From assembly GCF_963675165.1 (NCBI RefSeq), contig NC_087378.1, forward strand, positions 1,915,525-1,979,524: a stretch of DNA of 64,000 nt, in the 5' to 3' direction. Made by a program: the position numbers and the translations under genes. How positions within the stretch are numbered: position 1 is the stretch's first letter; every line of letters starts with the position of its first letter. Below, piece by piece: positions 32,525 to 49,460 of this stretch. This DNA comes from Halichondria panicea (lineage: Eukaryota; Porifera; Demospongiae; Suberitida; Halichondriidae). Under the pieces are notes generated by a model. It saw nothing but the letters and a program-made list of their open reading frames with translations. It was not told the DNA's origin and ran no database searches.

Positions 32525-33431
32525 TAAGGCCACTCCAAGTGACACTCTGGTTTCTGGTCCACCGCCCGCATCAATATTTTTCTGGCTAAATTTACCTCAT
32601 TATTTCTATTGCGCATGCGCATAATTAATTAATCTCCACATGGTCAGCTGTCAATGTTGGATCTGTTCAGAGATCTGTTCAAGTGACTGTACTGTAAGTA
32701 TCTTCTTTGTTTCATTGAAATATTATCTTAAGGACACTATTAAAGTATAGTTAAATGCCTGTTTGTTCAATAAGCCTATTAAATTAACACATTTCTATAT
32801 AATTATCACTCTGGTACAATTATCACTCTGGTACAAGTTCAAGCTAGTTGTATGAGACCATAGATAAAAGAGAGAGAGGGATTGGAAACGGATCACGTGA
32901 TGCTACACAATTTGCTTATGTGACGTAACACCCCCAAATAACAACCGCGTTTCGCCCTCGAAATAGCTTTGTGCTATGTGAAAAATCGTTTAACCAAAGC
33001 TAGGAAGTCTCATCAGTGACGTTTACAGTGGTAAAATGTGTTCACCCACGTGGCATACACTGTCATAAAGTTGGTATAGTGCAGCTGTAAAATTTTTGCA
33101 AGTATAGGTGAGTAACAGCAGTTTTTTCAGTAAATTTCATGTTTCTGTTCCTATAACTTATAAAGTAGTTTGTAAAATGGGCTGAAAATATATCTGGCAC
33201 TAATTTACACTTGAATGAACAAGAATATTGTGTTAGCCAATTATAGTAAGAAATGTACTTGCCTGTGTCAGTTACTTTTTGTATAAAAAGTGTGTAATGT
33301 TTCCGTACCTATTATTAAAGTGCTCCAATAGTTATTACTATGATATTGGGCAATTTAAAAGCTGTGGATTTGTTGAATGAGAATGACTGTGTTTTGTTAT
33401 AATCCGTTTCTTAGAAAATCAGAGAAGTAAA

Positions 33432-36194
33432 ATGCCGCGAAAGTTGAGATTCTACCAAGCCAAAAATTGGGAAAGTGAAAAACAGAAAAAGAAAGTATGT
33501 TGCAAGTATATAAGTATAAAAACACAATGATAATGTCAATAACTTGCTACAGGAAAGCATATCCGCTGTTCCATCGACATCTAATGAAGAACAAAATGTT
33601 GAGGTTAATACTCTGGAAGATTTTCATGATCGCGTAGTGCCTACCCTTGATATGACATGGAGTAATCAAACATCACCTGAAAGGCCAATAACAGCAATCA
33701 AACTCTGTAAGATATCATCTGAAGCTTCTACTTCAAGTCAACCTCTGGTTATAACACATACATTGTTAGTAAATGTTGATTTATCTTGGGAATTGTTTGT
33801 TCACGGTCACAAAGTTGACGCAGGAAATACCAAAGTACTGTCATCAATTCCATTTACGCTAATAAGTTTTTCGAGTTTCAGACAGCTTTTGGATGTAATT
33901 CAATCAAGTACTGTGTGTACTGGTAACCCTGATCCGCATTTTGTGGGTATGATTGTGTCACGCAAAGGAAAATTATTGAGTCCTAATGGAGAAATAAAAG
34001 CTCAGTTAGACAGTGGATTCCCTGTTGCAAATGGCAAGCAAACGTACTCAAAAACTGTATGAACAATTAATTGCGAACTGTTAGTGAATGGTGAAAAATG
34101 TATTGATTGCTCTAAGTACAGATGTACTTTACGTTCGTTGCATAGCCGATATTCAAGTGCAAATCAGGATGCAAGCATGCATACTAACGATCGGTATTTA
34201 AAGACTCCTCAAAGAACAGAGAAGCTAAAAAGTCTACGAAGTCGTTGTAAATTTATGGAGATTGAAGTGAAACGGTTAAAAACTAAAATACAGGAATCAT
34301 CTGATTCAAAAGGAGTTAGTGTAGATGAGCCTCTACATCAAGAGCTACGTGGTATAATGGTACAAAGAAGTGATTCAATTTTGAAAGCTTATCCTGAAGG
34401 TTCTTTTAAAAGGCTCTTCTGGGATCAACAACTGAAAGCAGCAACAGTGATGAACGCTGCACAAATGAGGTGGCATCCCACAATGATAAGGTGGTGTTTA
34501 AATCTAAAGTATCTCTCCTCAGCTGCTTATCATTCCTTGCGTTCTTCTGGCTTTATAAGACTACCATCAGAAAGAACACTTAGAGATTATTCTCATGTAT
34601 TCAAAGTTAAGTGTGGTTTCCAATCCGAAGTTGATAAAATGTTGCTGGAAGAAGCTAGTAAACATGGACTATTGGAGTGGAAAAAGTTCATTGTAATTTT
34701 AATAGATGAAATGAAGTTGCGAGAGAGTTTGGTCTATGATAAGCATCATCATAATGTGATTGGTTTCGTTCATTTGAGTGATGTAGAAAATCAACTAAGC
34801 GAGAGCAACATTTCCGATAATAGCGTTGCAACACATTTGCTTTGCCTTATGGTAAGAGGTGTTTTTACTGGATTGCATTTTCCGTATGCTCATTTTGCTA
34901 CAGCTGAAGTAACAGGATCATCGCTATTTTTCATGGTCTGGGAGGCAATAGAACGATTAGAGAGACTTGGTTTTAAAGTAATAGCAGTAACCGGAGATGG
35001 CGCTTCAACAAATCGAAAGCTATTTAATATACACTCTGTTAGTAAGGATGATGTTTGTCACCGAGTTAAAAATCCATATACTACTGAAGAACGATACATT
35101 CACTTCTTTTCAGACATCCCTCACCTTATTAAAACAACGCGTAATTGTTGGTCACATTCCTTTGGGCATGGATGGACAAGAAAACTGTGGGTGAGTATAA
35201 ATCATGTGGTTGTTTGCTCTTTCAAATTATGAATCTGTTCACAGATCAATGGCAAACATATTAGCTGGGATCATTTGCGCTCCCTCTACAATGGCAAAGT
35301 ATCAATGGGAAAGAGGTCAGAGGGACTATTTCTTCTTAAAAAACTTTCGAAAGAACATGTTGATCTAAATTCGTATTCAAGAATGAAAGTGAGCCTTGCA
35401 GCCGAGGTAAGGAAATGCCTTGTTATTAAATTAATACATCGTTATGCACAGGTATTAAGTGAATCAGTCGCTGAAGGATTGTGTATGCAAGGGTCTGTGG
35501 ACACATTTGAAACGCAAAGATTCGTGCGCATGATGGATAAGTTGTTCGACTGTCTTAATGTACGTCACCCAAAAGTATACTTAAAACGGAGAAAACACAA
35601 CTTGAAGCCATATGAAGATGCTGACGATGCACGCCTAAATGTAAGATTAAAATGGCAACATACCATTTATAACACACTGTACACACACTTCTATTGCAGT
35701 GGTTGGAAAAAGATTTCCTAGGATACCTCAAAGAATGGGAGGATAGTGTGGAAACAAGAACTGATGTACCGAAGGCAGAAAAACCAACAATGCTTCTGAG
35801 CAGGGCAACTAGGGAAGGATTAAGGATTACTGGTAATTACATATAGCATATACATACATGTATAGGTATGTGCATATCTATTTTTGCAGTGAAATCATTT
35901 GTGGCTGTCATTCGATACTTGTTTAGTCTACCATGTGTGTCTGGTCGATACTTACTCAGCGAATGTTTCTCTCAAGATCCATTAGAAAACTATTTTGGAC
36001 AGTTGCGTAGTAGAGGAGGATTTTGTACTAACCCTACTCTACAATCTTGCTTGCAATCTTCCCAATCAATTCGAGTTCAAGGCAGTCTTTCCATGCTACC
36101 AGTAAGGGGAAATTCGTCTAAAAAGAGAAGGCTATTTAATGAAGAGGAAGTAGTTGATGACACTCCCCTTAAGAAGAGACCTAGACATAAGTAG
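33432..36194 (+). CDS. P-element-type (THAP9-like) transposase with one in-frame stop
   Basis: Five exons: 33432-33494, 33553-35190, 35245-35640, 35700-35832 and 35890-36194, phases consistent, totalling 844 residues. After a short basic N terminus and a CIDCSKYRCTLRSLHSR Cys motif comes a coiled-coil-like segment. The RNase H-like core follows: FIVILIDEMKLRESLVYD (first Asp), KVIAVTGDGASTNRKLF (second Asp), FFSDIPHLIKTTRNCW, and near the C terminus ECFSQDPLENYFGQLRSRGG, the hallmark S-x-D-x-x-E block of P-element and THAP9 transposases. No C2CH THAP domain is seen. The frame is open except for one TGA at 34060-34062, between KTV and TINCELLVNG; reading resumes in the same frame, so it is a single nonsense change. 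It would catalyse cut-and-paste of the enclosing element, but this copy is probably inactive unless the stop is read through. Confidence 0.88.
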
Positions 36195-36365
36195 GGTGTG
36201 TTGTATGTATTATTGTGTTTCATGTTGTTTTTAACTCTATAATTCCATGACTGTATTAATTACTATCGTAACTTCAATACATACTTGTAATTAGATAAGT
36301 AATATCCCTAAAACGAGAGAAACATAATATTGCACCAAAGTATTAATACATGTACACAGCTACAG

Positions 36366-37420
36366 CTAGTCAGTACTGAGATCTTTTCTGAGACTTTTTG
36401 ATCTTTTGACATTCTTTTGCTTGGCTAGCTTGTACTGCTCAAGCCAAGAAGACACCATTGAAAAACCTCTCATAGTTATCCACTTTTCAATTATCTCCTC
36501 CAGCAATTGTGATTGTTCAATCTCTAAATCAATGTCAATGGATATCATAGACCACCAAAATTGTACATCATCATCGGCTACTACTTCAGCAATCAACTCC
36601 TTACTGCTCGTTTGTTGTGTTCGTAAGTGCTGTGGGAGCAATTCTTGTGTTTTTATTTCAATAGCTTTAAACAGCATAAAACTTTTGTCATCTACGTAGA
36701 ACAGTCCACCTCTGTCAATGTTTGCCATCCATTCCATTGAAAAGTCGTAAAAAGAGCAGTCTTCAATACTTCCATGTCGATGACCCACCATTTTCATTTG
36801 AGAGAGACATTCAACAAAGTTAGCAGCAGTACATGAATTAACTTTTTTATACACTTCTAATAGCTTTTTTGTTGTATAGCCGGCTGCATATCTAACAGCA
36901 TTACATTCGTCACATGAAAGATCTTCTCGTTTACGGGTAAGCTTACTTGAATTATCTTCACAGTGACTTAGACTCCTAGCCAAAACTTTTTCGAACAAAA
37001 CTCGATTTACTGACTGCTGTTGATGTACACTGACAACTGATATTCCTAGCTGGGCACAACCATGTTTCCATACACCAGGTAGTTCCTGCTGTGATGACGT
37101 GAAGAATAATGTTTGAGCTCGCTCTTTTGCTGTGTGTTCTCTGACTCTCCCAAAGTGCTTCAGTGTTTTGTTTATCACAGCTACTAGTTCCAGACAAAAT
37201 GTTTGAAGTATGGCCTTCTTTTCAGCTGACTGTGACAATTCCACAACTTGTTGTATAGATCTTTTACTTTCTACTTTAACATCAATTTCTTCTTCCGTCT
37301 TTAACACACATCCAATAGCATTCAACACAATTTCCAACTCGTCTTCTATTTTCTTGTTCGATGGCTTCTTCATAGATGGTTTGTTTGAAGGTGTCTTTGT
37401 CCTAGCCTGAGCCTCAGCCA
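36366..37420 (-). CDS. accessory protein of the P-like transposon (second gene)
   Basis: Intronless 351-residue ORF from ATG 37420 (MAEAQARTKTPSNKPSMKKP), fully open and convergent with the transposase gene, both inside the same inverted repeats. Visible features: a basic Pro/Ser/Lys N terminus, an alpha-helical middle, a CDECNAVRYAAGYTTKKLLE motif with paired cysteines, an acidic region, and a basic C terminus (KNVKRSKSLRK). It lacks the DDE signatures. The intact frame next to a transposase carrying a nonsense codon is notable. A DNA-binding or regulatory partner is a guess; the family was not recognised. Confidence 0.75.
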
Positions 37421-37606
37421 TAATCAAACGTAAGCCTCGATTAAACCGCAGCGAAACGCGGATAGTATTCGAGGAGTTTTGTCGTTTCCAATCCCTCTAT
37501 CTCGTTTATCTATGATGAGACATACCCCCACCCCTGCCCCCTGTATTCTCATTCTGTTAGTATACTATTTACAGATCAGTATTGAAATATAATTTTCTCT
37601 ACAGAG

Positions 37607-40600
37607 ATGTCTGCCATGATAAATTGTTGTGTGTACAATCGGTCGGTAAACAAAACTTTACTTCCTTGGAGAATTATTTCAATCGATGAACCAGGTATAA
37701 GCGTTGAACAATACTTTGAACAAAGAGTTTTTAAAGAAATTGCAGATTCACCCCAGGAGCTTCAAATAGATTCAGCATTTCTTGGAAAAGGAAAAGATTC
37801 TTTGGATAGAATCGAACTATCACTGGTACTGGAAAGAGCTGCTGCTGTTTTTGGTCCCTTCCTGAAGTATCATGTCAGTGTACTAGAACGATCTCTGCCT
37901 GCTACTCATACAACAGATGCTTTCGCTATGATGATGCGTAGTTCCCAGTTGCTCTCTCAGCCTGGGCTACCTTCTAGTGTCCCAGAGCGCACCAACAAAG
38001 ATAAGCTTTATAATGATGTTTTGAAGCTCTTTAATGATGAGGATGTTGCTTTTCCTGGCTCTGAAATCCAGTCGGGTGGACACAGATTTATGGTTGCTAT
38101 TGTTGATTGCCTGTGGTATTTAGATGGTCACCATTCTGCCTTGGAGAAGCAATCTTGTACAATTCCTAGCCTATTTACTCGTTTCAATGGCTACAATACT
38201 CCTGAAGTTTCGAAACACAGAAAGAGAAGTATCTCAAGTCTTTCTGGCATCACCCTTGAGACCCTGGCATCCACGTTGTTTCACAACTTGCAAAAATCCT
38301 TTTGGTCATCTGAGCGATTGAAGTCTCTGCATATGAACACTGAATCGTTAGCCAGAAGCATTGCATCTTATTCTGACTACCTCTCCTCACAACGAAAGAA
38401 GACAAGCACGTTGCACAAATCGCCATTGCCTGTACGACATATTTCAGATTCTATGTCTGTGAAGTTTGTTAAAGCATCAACTGGACTATTTCCCTGTGAT
38501 AAAAGATTAGAATGGTTGTGTTTGTGTTTGCAAGAGAAATTGGAGTACGAATTTTTGTCTCTCTGTGAATTCGTTCCTGAAACCGCAAGAGAACGTTACG
38601 ACTACGTAAAAGTTCTTGAGAGAAATGGGCTTCCATATCCGATCATGTTTTTGACACACTCATCGGGAAACAATATAGGCAATTTGCACTTTGTATGGAA
38701 GCTACCAACTGCTAAGTCTATTGAATCAACTTTTGAAGAGAGTGTTACAACTATTGAGGCCATTAAGCTTATTCTTCCGCAATACCATACTCGTGCTATG
38801 CGCCGTGAAGTATTTGCCAAGTTTGGTCGGATTTCATCCAAAGTGAAACCAGCTGCTTTGCGCTTTCTCTACCGGGAATTGACTGCAGACTGTGCCGCTT
38901 CTCATGACACACCAGAAGCAATTATTGATGAGCGTGTACGTTCAATCATTTTGATGGAACCAGAAGACCCTCACACTGTTGTTGATTTACGAGAAGTGAA
39001 GTCGCAGGAAACAAAGACCAAGTACGATGTATTTTGGGATGAGGCAAAGAAATATATCAACGAAGATATCGGTGTGGCGGTTGATGACCGAAGACATGGT
39101 GACGTAACCCACATGGCTAAAGCTATATCTGTTAGAGATCTACGTGATCAAGTCACCAGCAAATGCCCACCAGGTGAGTTTTAATACAATTTTTAATGCA
39201 ATTAGTAATAATTATACATGTATGCTGATATTAATTTTAACTACCCAGTTTATATTTGTATGCTCTCAATGTAGGTACGATGATCCCCTCTGAGGAATGG
39301 CTAAGGCTCCAGTTCTGGCCTAAGACAAAGGCAGCTAAAGTTGCAATGCAATACACTGGAAGGCTAAACATCCGATATATGATTCAAAAAAGGCAATTTC
39401 GAAAGACTCATGCCGATGAACACTATGCTGCTGCTCTGTATCGATACATGCGAGAGTATGCTGTCCAGCTGTTAGAATACTGCAATATGATATCGATTGA
39501 CGATAAACACAGGCTGAAGGTTGGCGAACCAGGATTTCCTGTTCCTGCCGCAGAAAGAGGTAGACGTGTTATAGTTCGTTCTGGCACAACATTCGAAGTT
39601 GGAGACCATGATTTCACCAAGTTCTCTATTATCCCATCTGTAGTGCTCCTTATTCACATACCAGAGACCATTGAAGACTCGTGGCCAAGTTGCAGTTGGC
39701 TTCAAAGATGCAGCGTTTGAAAGCTCTTCACCGATACGACATGCTACTGAATTGTCTTCGATTCTAAAGAGCAAAGAAGAGTACCAGAAACCAGTTTTGT
39801 TTGTGTACAGCGATGGCGGACCAGACCATCGAATAACGTATGTATCCGTTCAGCTTTCTTTAATATGCTTATTTCTAAGTCTCGATTTGGATTTCCTTTG
39901 TGCTGTGAGAACTGCTCCATCGCACTCATGGCGAAATCCTGTGGAGAGGGTCATGTCAACTCTGAACTTAGGACTGCAATGTGTTGGGCTTATGCGAGAG
40001 AAAGGAGACGATGAATTTGAGAAGGAAGCTTCCAAATGCAATAGTCTCACTTCTTTGCGGGAAACTGCCAAGAAAGACCCAAACTTTAAGTCAGCTGCTA
40101 TAGACAGCTTGTCTCATGTAAAGTCGCTTCTTGTTCAAGTGCTACGCAGACTGAAACTGAAAGACAAGACCTTTACTCCATTTTTTCCTGCTTCTGAAAT
40201 TGATATTGACACTCTCTGGAATGAAGCTATACGTGTAGATTCAACCCTCAACAGAGAAGAGTCCATAACAACCAAAAAGCTACCTGGAAAGAAAGACCTG
40301 AACGCTTTTCTACAGCATTGCTGTACTCGAAGACATTACTCATTTCAAATAAAGAAATGTGGTTCCGATAGCTGTACTATTTGTCGACCTCCAAGGCTTC
40401 CTAAGCAAGTGTTCAATAGTCTCAGTGTACTACCTGACCCTGTTCCAACTGAAGACGGCCACTACAAGTCATTTGAGGAGTTACTTGGTACACCCACTGA
40501 TGGTAGCTTCAGACCCTCTCTTCAAAAAGTAAAGAAGACACTGCCTTTTTCAGCCAGCATTCAACACGTTAAGAACGTTGATATGATGTTGCAATGTGAA

Positions 40601-47892: not shown

Positions 47893-49460
47893 TTAATAAT
47901 AATAATAATATATAATAATCGATGCTTTACAGTATGACTTTACATTTACACAAGGTGAATAGATTGTTGTGCGTCAGAAATTAAACATACTGACAGGAAG
48001 TTCCTAGAAGGAACACCTGACTAAATCTACATAAAATGTATACATAATTATACAGTTATACAGAGCAACAGGGGCAGACTAGGTGATAAGTGCAAATTAT
48101 TGATTGGTCAAAGCGTTCTAGAAAACTGTCCCAGAAATGTTTGTAGAGTTGATTCTTGATAGTTGACATCGAGTGAGAGAGATCTATAAAAGGGAGGGCG
48201 TTCCAGAGTCTGACCAATCTTTTGAAGTAAAAGTGTCTTGTTGTGTTTGAGCGATGATGACCTTTATGAACTAGCTTGTGATTAGACGATAGTCTTGTGT
48301 TGCTGGTAGAGAATGATATGAACTCAGTAATGTCGAAGTTGTCTACTGGTTTTTGGAGACACCTGACGGCGAATATGACATCTTGCAACTCTAGCCAGTT
48401 CATTAGTGGCAAAAGGTCCAGTTTAATGAGGCGACTTTTGTAGTCGAGACTATCAGATCTACATGTAAGATTCAGAATAAACTTTGAAGATCTTCTCTGG
48501 ATTTGTTCCACTTTTGTGATGGCCTTGTGTGTCTGTGGTCTCCACAGTTGCGAACAAAATGTTAAATTAGATCTAACAAGCGTAGTATAAAGTGTTCTTT
48601 TTGTGTGGAGATCATGAGAGCATTGAGTGTTTCTTTTAATAAGGTACAAACAGCTGTAGGCCTTCGAACATAGGTTGTTGATATGTTGGTCCCAGGAAAG
48701 ACTATTCTGGATGGTCACTCCCAGGTCTTTGTGAGAGTCTCTTGTTAAGATTAGCTTTGAGTCCAAATTATATAGCGAGTCATGAATGGTTTTACCAAAG
48801 TGGAGGTAGACACATTTGTCTAAATTGAGTGATAAGTTCCAGTCCTTGCACCATGTGACAAGATGGTCTAGATCAGATTGCAGGTCTGCTTGGTCTTCTG
48901 CATTGGCTATTCGCTTCACTAGTTTAGTGTCATCTGCATAGATATATATGGACGAATTAACAATTGGAGTGGTGATATCATTGACATATACCAAAAACAA
49001 CAGAGGACCGAGAATGCTGCCTTGAGGTACACCTGATAGCACAGATAGTGATGAAGAGTTTGCTCCCTCTAAACAGACATAGTGGCTTCGGTTGCTCAAA
49101 TAACATTCAAACCATTTCCATACATTACCTGTAATGCCTAACCTCCATAGTTTGAATAACAGTTGTTTATGGGACACTTTATCAAACGCCTTAGCAAAGT
49201 CCAAGTATATAACGTCGCAGGATTCTCCAGCATTTAGAGCTTCCACAATCTCGCTGTATGATGTTAGCAGCTGTGATAAGCAGGATCTGCCCTTTAGGAA
49301 ACCAAATTGATTTGTTGAGAGCTGTGGTCTAATGAAGTCAATTATGTGGTTGTAAACAATTCTTTCTAGAATTTTAGAAAGCATACACAGTAGAGAGATC
49401 GGGCGATAGTTTTTAATGATGTGGTCATTCAATAATATAGATGTCCTTATACCAGGAGAA
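47893..49460 (-). mobile_element. 5'-truncated non-LTR retrotransposon (Jockey/CR1-like)
   Basis: One open frame (49432-48056, 458 residues, open upstream to ~49460) covers most of a reverse transcriptase: KNYRPISLLCMLSKILERIV, NQFGFLKGRSCLSQLLTSYS, CDVIYLDFAKAFDKVSHKQL, SVLSGVPQGSILGPLLFLVY, IYADDTKLVKRIANA with the catalytic ADD, and CKDWNLSLNLDKCVYLHFGK. The C-terminal region follows (SWDQHINNLCSKAYSCLYLI; RHFYFKRLVRLWNALP). Endonuclease and ORF1 are missing, so it is truncated at the 5' side. The 3' end carries an ATT-unit tail (plus-strand TAA repeats, 47893-47919), typical of CR1/L2-like elements. It probably inserted in the last intron of the ankyrin gene, antisense. Confidence 0.9.

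Follow-up and report, generated by a model that had tools for sequence, protein, structure and literature searches.

In a 64,000-bp stretch of the genome of the sponge Halichondria panicea (assembly GCF_963675165.1, contig NC_087378.1, positions 1,915,525 to 1,979,524; hereafter, the window), positions 32859-37514 are occupied by a complete transposon of the P superfamily, which carries a transposase gene on the forward strand and a convergent second gene, open reading frame 2 (ORF2), on the reverse strand. We consider it fairly probable that this is an autonomous element with a transposase composed of two proteins, each encoded by one of the two convergent genes. ORF2 probably supplies the tail domain that is absent from the shortened transposase. 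The most likely account of the lineage is that it lacks both the THAP domain and a covalently attached C-terminal domain (CTD), and that its near-constant convergent partner is the CTD provided in trans.

Structure and mobility of the element

The element begins and ends with 32-nt terminal inverted repeats (TIRs) that are 94% complementary (32859-32890, forward strand, beginning CATAGATAAA; 37483-37514, reverse strand), and it lies between exact 7-bp target site duplications (TSDs), ATGAGAC, at 32852-32858 and 37515-37521. Inside the TIRs lies a pair of 11-bp subterminal inverted repeats (CCGCGTTTCGC at 32945-32955, forward strand; 37451-37461, reverse strand). The initial annotation had drawn a P-superfamily element with exactly these limits, and the TIRs and TSDs confirmed the coordinates, while P-type Pfam domains and a match to chain A of the Drosophila P transposase structure (6p5a_A) confirmed the superfamily. 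Its description of a second, intact, convergent gene without the catalytic Asp-Asp-Glu (DDE) residues was also correct; the 351-aa frame of ORF2 lies wholly between the TIRs.

Splice sites of the GT-AG type, chosen by eye, gave a transposase model of five exons and 844 aa on the forward strand. Exon 1 (33432-33494) is followed by exon 2 (33553-35190), which encodes an N-terminal Cys-rich part, a part resembling a helix-turn-helix (HTH) and the N-terminal half of the RNase H domain with D406 and D503; exon 3 (35245-35640) encodes the GTP-binding insertion domain (GBD), and exon 4 (35700-35832) leads to exon 5 (35890-36194) with the C-terminal half of RNase H, the catalytic E776 and a basic tail. 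PF21787, PF21788 and PF21789 were all above the cut-off in the transposase model, and the values for the spliced transposase of copy L032 were 7.3e-25 (TNP-like_RNaseH_N), 2.2e-12 (GBD) and 1.6e-7 (RNaseH_C). The match to 6p5a_A had an E-value of 4.6e-13. The catalytic residues were conserved in 13 of 13 (D406), 15 of 15 (D503) and 13 of 16 (E776) aligned sequences with a residue at the position. The D(2)H motif that follows the second Asp was also present (FSDIPHLIK aligned to FSDTPHLIK of 6p5a_A; D542 in 14 of 16), and four Cys residues of the N-terminal part were conserved (C143, C195, C204, and C207). The transposase reads open in five of the seven copies examined; the window copy and the copy on contig C3 have one in-frame stop each, that of the window in exon 2.

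ORF2 occupies 36366-37421 on the reverse strand. The ATG at 37421 gives 351 aa and an upstream TTG gives 353 aa; the stop codon is at 36366-36368. The stop codons of the two genes are 171 bp apart, which would leave room for separate 3' ends.

Further copies were sought in the 131-Mb, 39-contig assembly, in which the window is C2:1915525-1979524 (C-numbers denote contigs). BLAST against fetched loci gave seven full copies with 99.7-100% identity over the aligned stretches and a partial copy on C4 (98.3-99.9%) that has lost its right end; the copy on C9 holds approximately 3.8 kb of additional DNA between its two genes. Both ends were retained in seven of these eight near-identical copies, and all seven had an exact 7-bp TSD. 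Thus, the whole two-gene unit has been mobile recently. Altogether, 12 elements of five families had an exact TSD (the seven copies of the window family, four diverged elements and a deletion derivative on C39). Its length was 7 bp in all 12 and 8 bp in none, and its consensus tended to GTnnnAC (G in 9, T in 10, A in 9, and C in 6 of the 12).

A joint scan for TIRs and TSDs covered 24 regions; its scoring favoured the TSD, so that the gapless TIR match varied. It recovered six elements of the window family and four diverged ones with TIRs starting CATAGAT and exact 7-bp TSDs enclosing both genes. The diverged elements (C1:5.24, C7:5.13, C15:4.22, and C16:4.25 Mb) belong to three families, those on C1 and C7 being close relatives; the gapless TIR matches of the four were 17, 18, 28, and 30 of 30, and the C15 element carries L029, an ORF2 from the most diverged group. 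No exact TSD was found in 14 of the 24 regions, some of them degraded or truncated at the limits of the fetched sequence; long inverted repeats (26-30 of 30) were still evident in three of the 14. In the copy at C1:14866448-14871103, each of the two TIRs matches the right-end type (30 of 30), which suggests conversion of one end. In addition, paired TIR-like ends 879 bp apart, with at most three mismatches from the window TIR, were observed at C12:1101348-1102226 and at three further places on C12; they are too close to enclose both genes and are likely non-autonomous copies.

Association and co-divergence of the two genes

The association of the two genes was counted in two ways. In the first count, matches of each protein were clustered at 2.5 kb, which resulted in 57 transposase loci and 54 ORF2 loci. 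ORF2 was located within 10 kb of 38 of the 57 transposase loci, convergent at 37 and tandem at one; of the other 19, 15 spanned less than 600 bp. The locus at C1:9183512, counted at first as partnerless, had ORF2 remnants on the expected strand, those at C6:6.82 Mb and C7:6.95 Mb held degraded transposase only, and inspection of the locus at C5:3.00 Mb revealed no ORF2. Sixteen of the 54 ORF2 loci had no partner in this count, and six of these were later found to be convergent with a catalytic exon.

The second count, unbiased by ORF2, started from PF21789 matches (E up to 1) to the exon that carries the catalytic Glu, of which there were 49. A uniform search detected a convergent ORF2 relative within 3 kb of 37 of these exons and a tandem one at one, that is, 38 pairs versus a rough chance expectation of 0.16. 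With remnants in the fetched DNA, 39 exons were convergent within 3 kb, one was tandem and nine were neither; two of the 39 pairs, at C5:5.47 Mb and C4:4.65 Mb (E 0.004), were recovered by more thorough inspection. Two of the nine had a convergent ORF2 further away (4.2 and 6.4 kb), and convergent remnants were recognized on closer inspection at C2:5.65 Mb, which brought the exons with a convergent ORF2 within 3 kb to 40. ORF2 thus travels with the transposase and is a partner of long standing. As to related copies lacking ORF2, which the initial annotation had named as evidence against it, no clear case was encountered; the short TIR-bounded copies exist, and ORF2 was not seen at six of the 49 exons. 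Two of these six (C3:1.66 Mb and C8:3.69 Mb) had lost the normal transposase tail, one was degraded (C12:3.02 Mb), and two were weak catalytic-exon matches with no ORF2 in the search (C9:4.21 Mb and C7:5.48 Mb). The exon at C12:2351056 has a normal tail, yet no ORF2 was present within the 2.2 kb fetched downstream.

A strictly convergent layout as an absolute rule was rejected on account of one copy, L061 (C12:3200100-3203300). This element is degraded and frame-broken, and its ORF2 stands in tandem to the transposase, beside retroelement-like frames; ORF2 is still a separate unit behind the transposase tail.

A genome search with ORF2 gave at least 67 matches with 100% to 24% identity. The protein was identical over its full length at six places in the genome, and two more copies, both partial, matched at 99-100%. 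Residues Y178, G181, L206, W231, R237, G238, F251, W290, L307, R318, G319, F320, and E328 were invariant in an alignment of 12 ORF2s, in which the most distant rows, L027 and L029, were 22 and 21% identical to the ORF2 of the window. Third codon positions differed most in 55 of 55 pairs from 11 families in both genes, the differences at positions 1, 2, and 3 being 0.53, 0.41, and 0.65 for ORF2 and 0.46, 0.34, and 0.65 for the transposase. This excess, together with the six identical full-length copies, indicated that ORF2 is not a chance reading frame. The divergence of the two genes was correlated: over 16 groups the Mantel r was 0.39, a value reached in 5 of 5,000 permutations, and over the 12 best-covered groups, which come from one genome and include two close relatives, it was 0.58 (4 of 10,000).

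That ORF2 is a passenger, captured by chance from the host or from another element, is barely credible. Such an origin would fit the lack of a consistent match in Pfam or NCBIfam, where single members gave weak matches (best E 0.019 and 0.008) and MBOAT_2 was one family matched weakly by two members. However, ORF2s as low as 21% identical to that of the window occupy the same place beside the same partner, and the co-divergence, the coding constraint and the number of close pairs also argue against it. The capture of a single host gene, raised in the initial annotation, was rejected by the co-occurrence, by the diverged pairs within TIRs and exact TSDs, and by the co-divergence. No relatives were confirmed in viral contigs, prokaryote genomes or phages. 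Similar proteins, of the type RYVAGYV...DRGGLW...IRGF, presumably occur in cnidarians and other invertebrates.

Comparison of ORF2 with the transposase C-terminal domain

Tail lengths were read from 15 different catalytic-exon sequences that a motif search had picked out of the fetched regions. A basic, TPLPKRKR-like end was reached 66-80 residues past the catalytic Glu in ten tails, and four stopped earlier, after 29-51 residues; the frame of the tandem copy runs 81 residues past the Glu, with the normal tail in another frame. No tail among the 15 was longer than 81 residues, and none included a covalent CTD. In the window copy, the stop lies 69 residues from the catalytic Glu (Glu counted), and the transposase ends approximately 50 residues beyond the part aligned with 6p5a_A. 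In the Drosophila P transposase, by contrast, the CTD is entirely helical and is attached through a disordered linker (PMC7776569). In human THAP9, a mutation was made at E776, which lies 163 residues beyond the catalytic E613 (PMC8230255). A search of the genome with PF12596 gave no match, and the controls were not detected by this search either.

The Drosophila P CTD is deposited as a chain of its own, 6p5a_B, and the query used here, a single sequence of 135 residues, is identical to it. The resemblance of ORF2 to this domain was proposed ahead of the profile tests. With hhalign, the ORF2 profile aligned to the CTD with a score of 29.7 (P 8e-4); the resemblance lies in the C-terminal half of ORF2 (residues approximately 163-351). 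The two are collinear at the YxAGY and GGL motifs (YAAGYTTKKL / YIAGYVIKKL and DRGGL / SHGGL), and at a relaxed threshold the alignment covers the entire CTD up to the basic ends. No shuffled CTD among 1,000 reached 29.7 (best 23.9 in 300 and 25.8 in 700 shuffles); the reversed CTD scored 18.4, and 40 control tiles from the transposase and four ORFs of the window reached at most 20.8. In addition, the weak match of the L027 ORF2 to Tnp_P_element_C (PF12596) covers the same motif as the hhalign alignment, and the profile positions matched by ORF2 (62-93) overlap those matched by the CTD (70-105). These data provide moderate evidence that the C-terminal half of ORF2 is homologous to the P CTD. 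Profile and structure checks had been suggested in the initial annotation; the former produced this resemblance, whereas the single-sequence models were unusable. From its description of ORF2 as an undescribed accessory or regulatory protein, the second protein stands, but given the CTD-like half, ORF2 is probably not an independent accessory or regulatory factor whose ancestry is obscure.

An accessory protein unrelated to the CTD, which would act in end binding, nuclear import or target choice in an element that has simply lost the domain, appears distinctly improbable. Accessory proteins as such are familiar, that of Harbinger being Myb-like, and KolX may act as one for Kolobok. Kolobok lineages also have them, one being encoded on the complementary strand (PMC9587614), and the N-terminal half of ORF2 is not CTD-like. 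However, an unrelated protein would not account for CTD-like motifs in the same order, for the basic end or for the outcome of the shuffles.

Several observations weigh against the reading of ORF2 as the CTD in trans. The hhalign probability was just 24.7%, with one sequence on the CTD side, and the shuffle controls do not preserve helix patterns. Only one of the 12 ORF2s (L027) matched Tnp_P_element_C, below the cut-off (E 0.21), and PDB sequence searches with ORF2, both profile and single-sequence, returned no P transposase chain. The N-terminal half of ORF2 has no counterpart in the known CTD, and AlphaFold2 single-sequence models gave no confident fold (mean predicted local distance difference test, pLDDT, 36 and 42). 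The nearest relative was the same for both genes in eight of 12 groups, not in all. In closer pairs, the ratio of nonsynonymous to synonymous substitution rates (dN/dS) was 0.50-1.21 in 15 pairs of ORF2 and 0.37-0.99 in 11 pairs of the transposase, which resembles copies decaying after insertion; therefore, constraint is visible between families only. Ten ORF2 loci are still unpaired with a transposase, including one on C39 and two on C14, and no transposase was found around the C39 locus or the single inspected C14 locus. The C39 locus, L063 (C39:32115-35734), is a 3,620-bp deletion derivative with TIRs and an exact 7-bp TSD (CTCTGGG), in which an open ORF2 of 340 aa is kept and the transposase is reduced to its tail.

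This derivative would also fit a regulator, derived from or mimicking the CTD, that binds the transposase or the transposon ends and limits transposition, since a copy making a repressor would be expected to keep ORF2 open. Truncated repressor proteins are made by Drosophila P elements, and two separate genes would permit separate control. We nevertheless regard regulation as the unlikely role: it leaves unexplained both the readable transposases without a CTD (the ten of 15 with the normal end) and the tight co-occurrence of ORF2 with catalytic exons, and just one derivative with an open ORF2 was seen.

Proposed two-protein transposase and related systems

In the proposed model of a CTD provided in trans, the forward gene would give a catalytic subunit with the HTH-like region, the RNase H DDE core and the GTP-binding insertion. 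This subunit would end at approximately the point that corresponds to the start of the disordered linker in the Drosophila enzyme, so that the split would fall within the linker. ORF2 would give the second subunit, with the CTD-like half and its basic end, and its approximately 160 extra N-terminal residues may dock it on the catalytic subunit. ORF2 may then join the complex of transposase and TIRs and do the job of the CTD: lodged between one subunit's RNase H domain and another's GBD, it would contact the transposon ends and the target DNA. The physical interaction of the two proteins, the need for it in transposition and the order of action are what we infer from this comparison. A broader proposition seems to us evenly balanced: in a lineage of P elements with no THAP domain detected, the CTD would be encoded by its own convergent gene, transposition would require two proteins that meet in trans, and a copy could carry just one of the halves.

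No THAP domain was found by Pfam in the 844-aa transposase model, and none of the 17 THAP matches in the genome lay inside a two-gene element. One degraded P catalytic exon is preceded, at a distance of 0.6 kb, by a THAP-like frame, L069 (C12:3016928-3017835), which is perhaps a leftover of a THAP-bearing relative. Outside the element, the window contains a 525-aa open frame (37607-39184, forward strand) that begins 92 bp past the element and had no Pfam match above the cut-off, and a 458-aa reverse transcriptase frame (48059-49432, reverse strand; RVT_1, E 9.1e-36).

The element shares with the Drosophila P element (PDB 6p5a/6pe2) the DDE RNase H core, the GTP-binding insertion and the D(2)H motif, and its 32-bp TIRs and 11-bp internal repeats compare with 31 and 11 bp (PMC7776569). 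It differs in that no THAP domain was found, the TSD is 7 rather than 8 bp, there is no covalent CTD and a second gene is present. Galileo, a P-superfamily element of Drosophila, has no second gene to our knowledge. Its TSDs are mostly of 7 bp, with a consensus GTANTAC that resembles the GTnnnAC observed here, but it has long TIRs and a THAP domain (PMC4168063). Zebrafish Pdre2 and THAP9 have a P-type catalytic core, and the TIR also starts with CATA (PMC10983969); unlike the sponge element, they comprise one protein with a CTD, a 13-bp TIR and an 8-bp TSD. Kolobok, which has KolX among its accessory genes, is likewise a DDE transposon of eukaryotes that carries a second gene (PMC9587614), but it has a TTAA TSD and a different transposase. 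The literature covered presents the P transposase as a single chain. Full-text searches turned up neither a second gene in a P element nor a CTD acting in trans, a result that does not extend to Repbase or to most subscription papers.

If the proposed reading is true, the natural split in the linker would show that the CTD can function as a module detached from the rest of the enzyme, and the two-part system would offer a second protein that can switch transposition. It would also mark out these elements, for which no THAP domain was detected, as a diverse P lineage.

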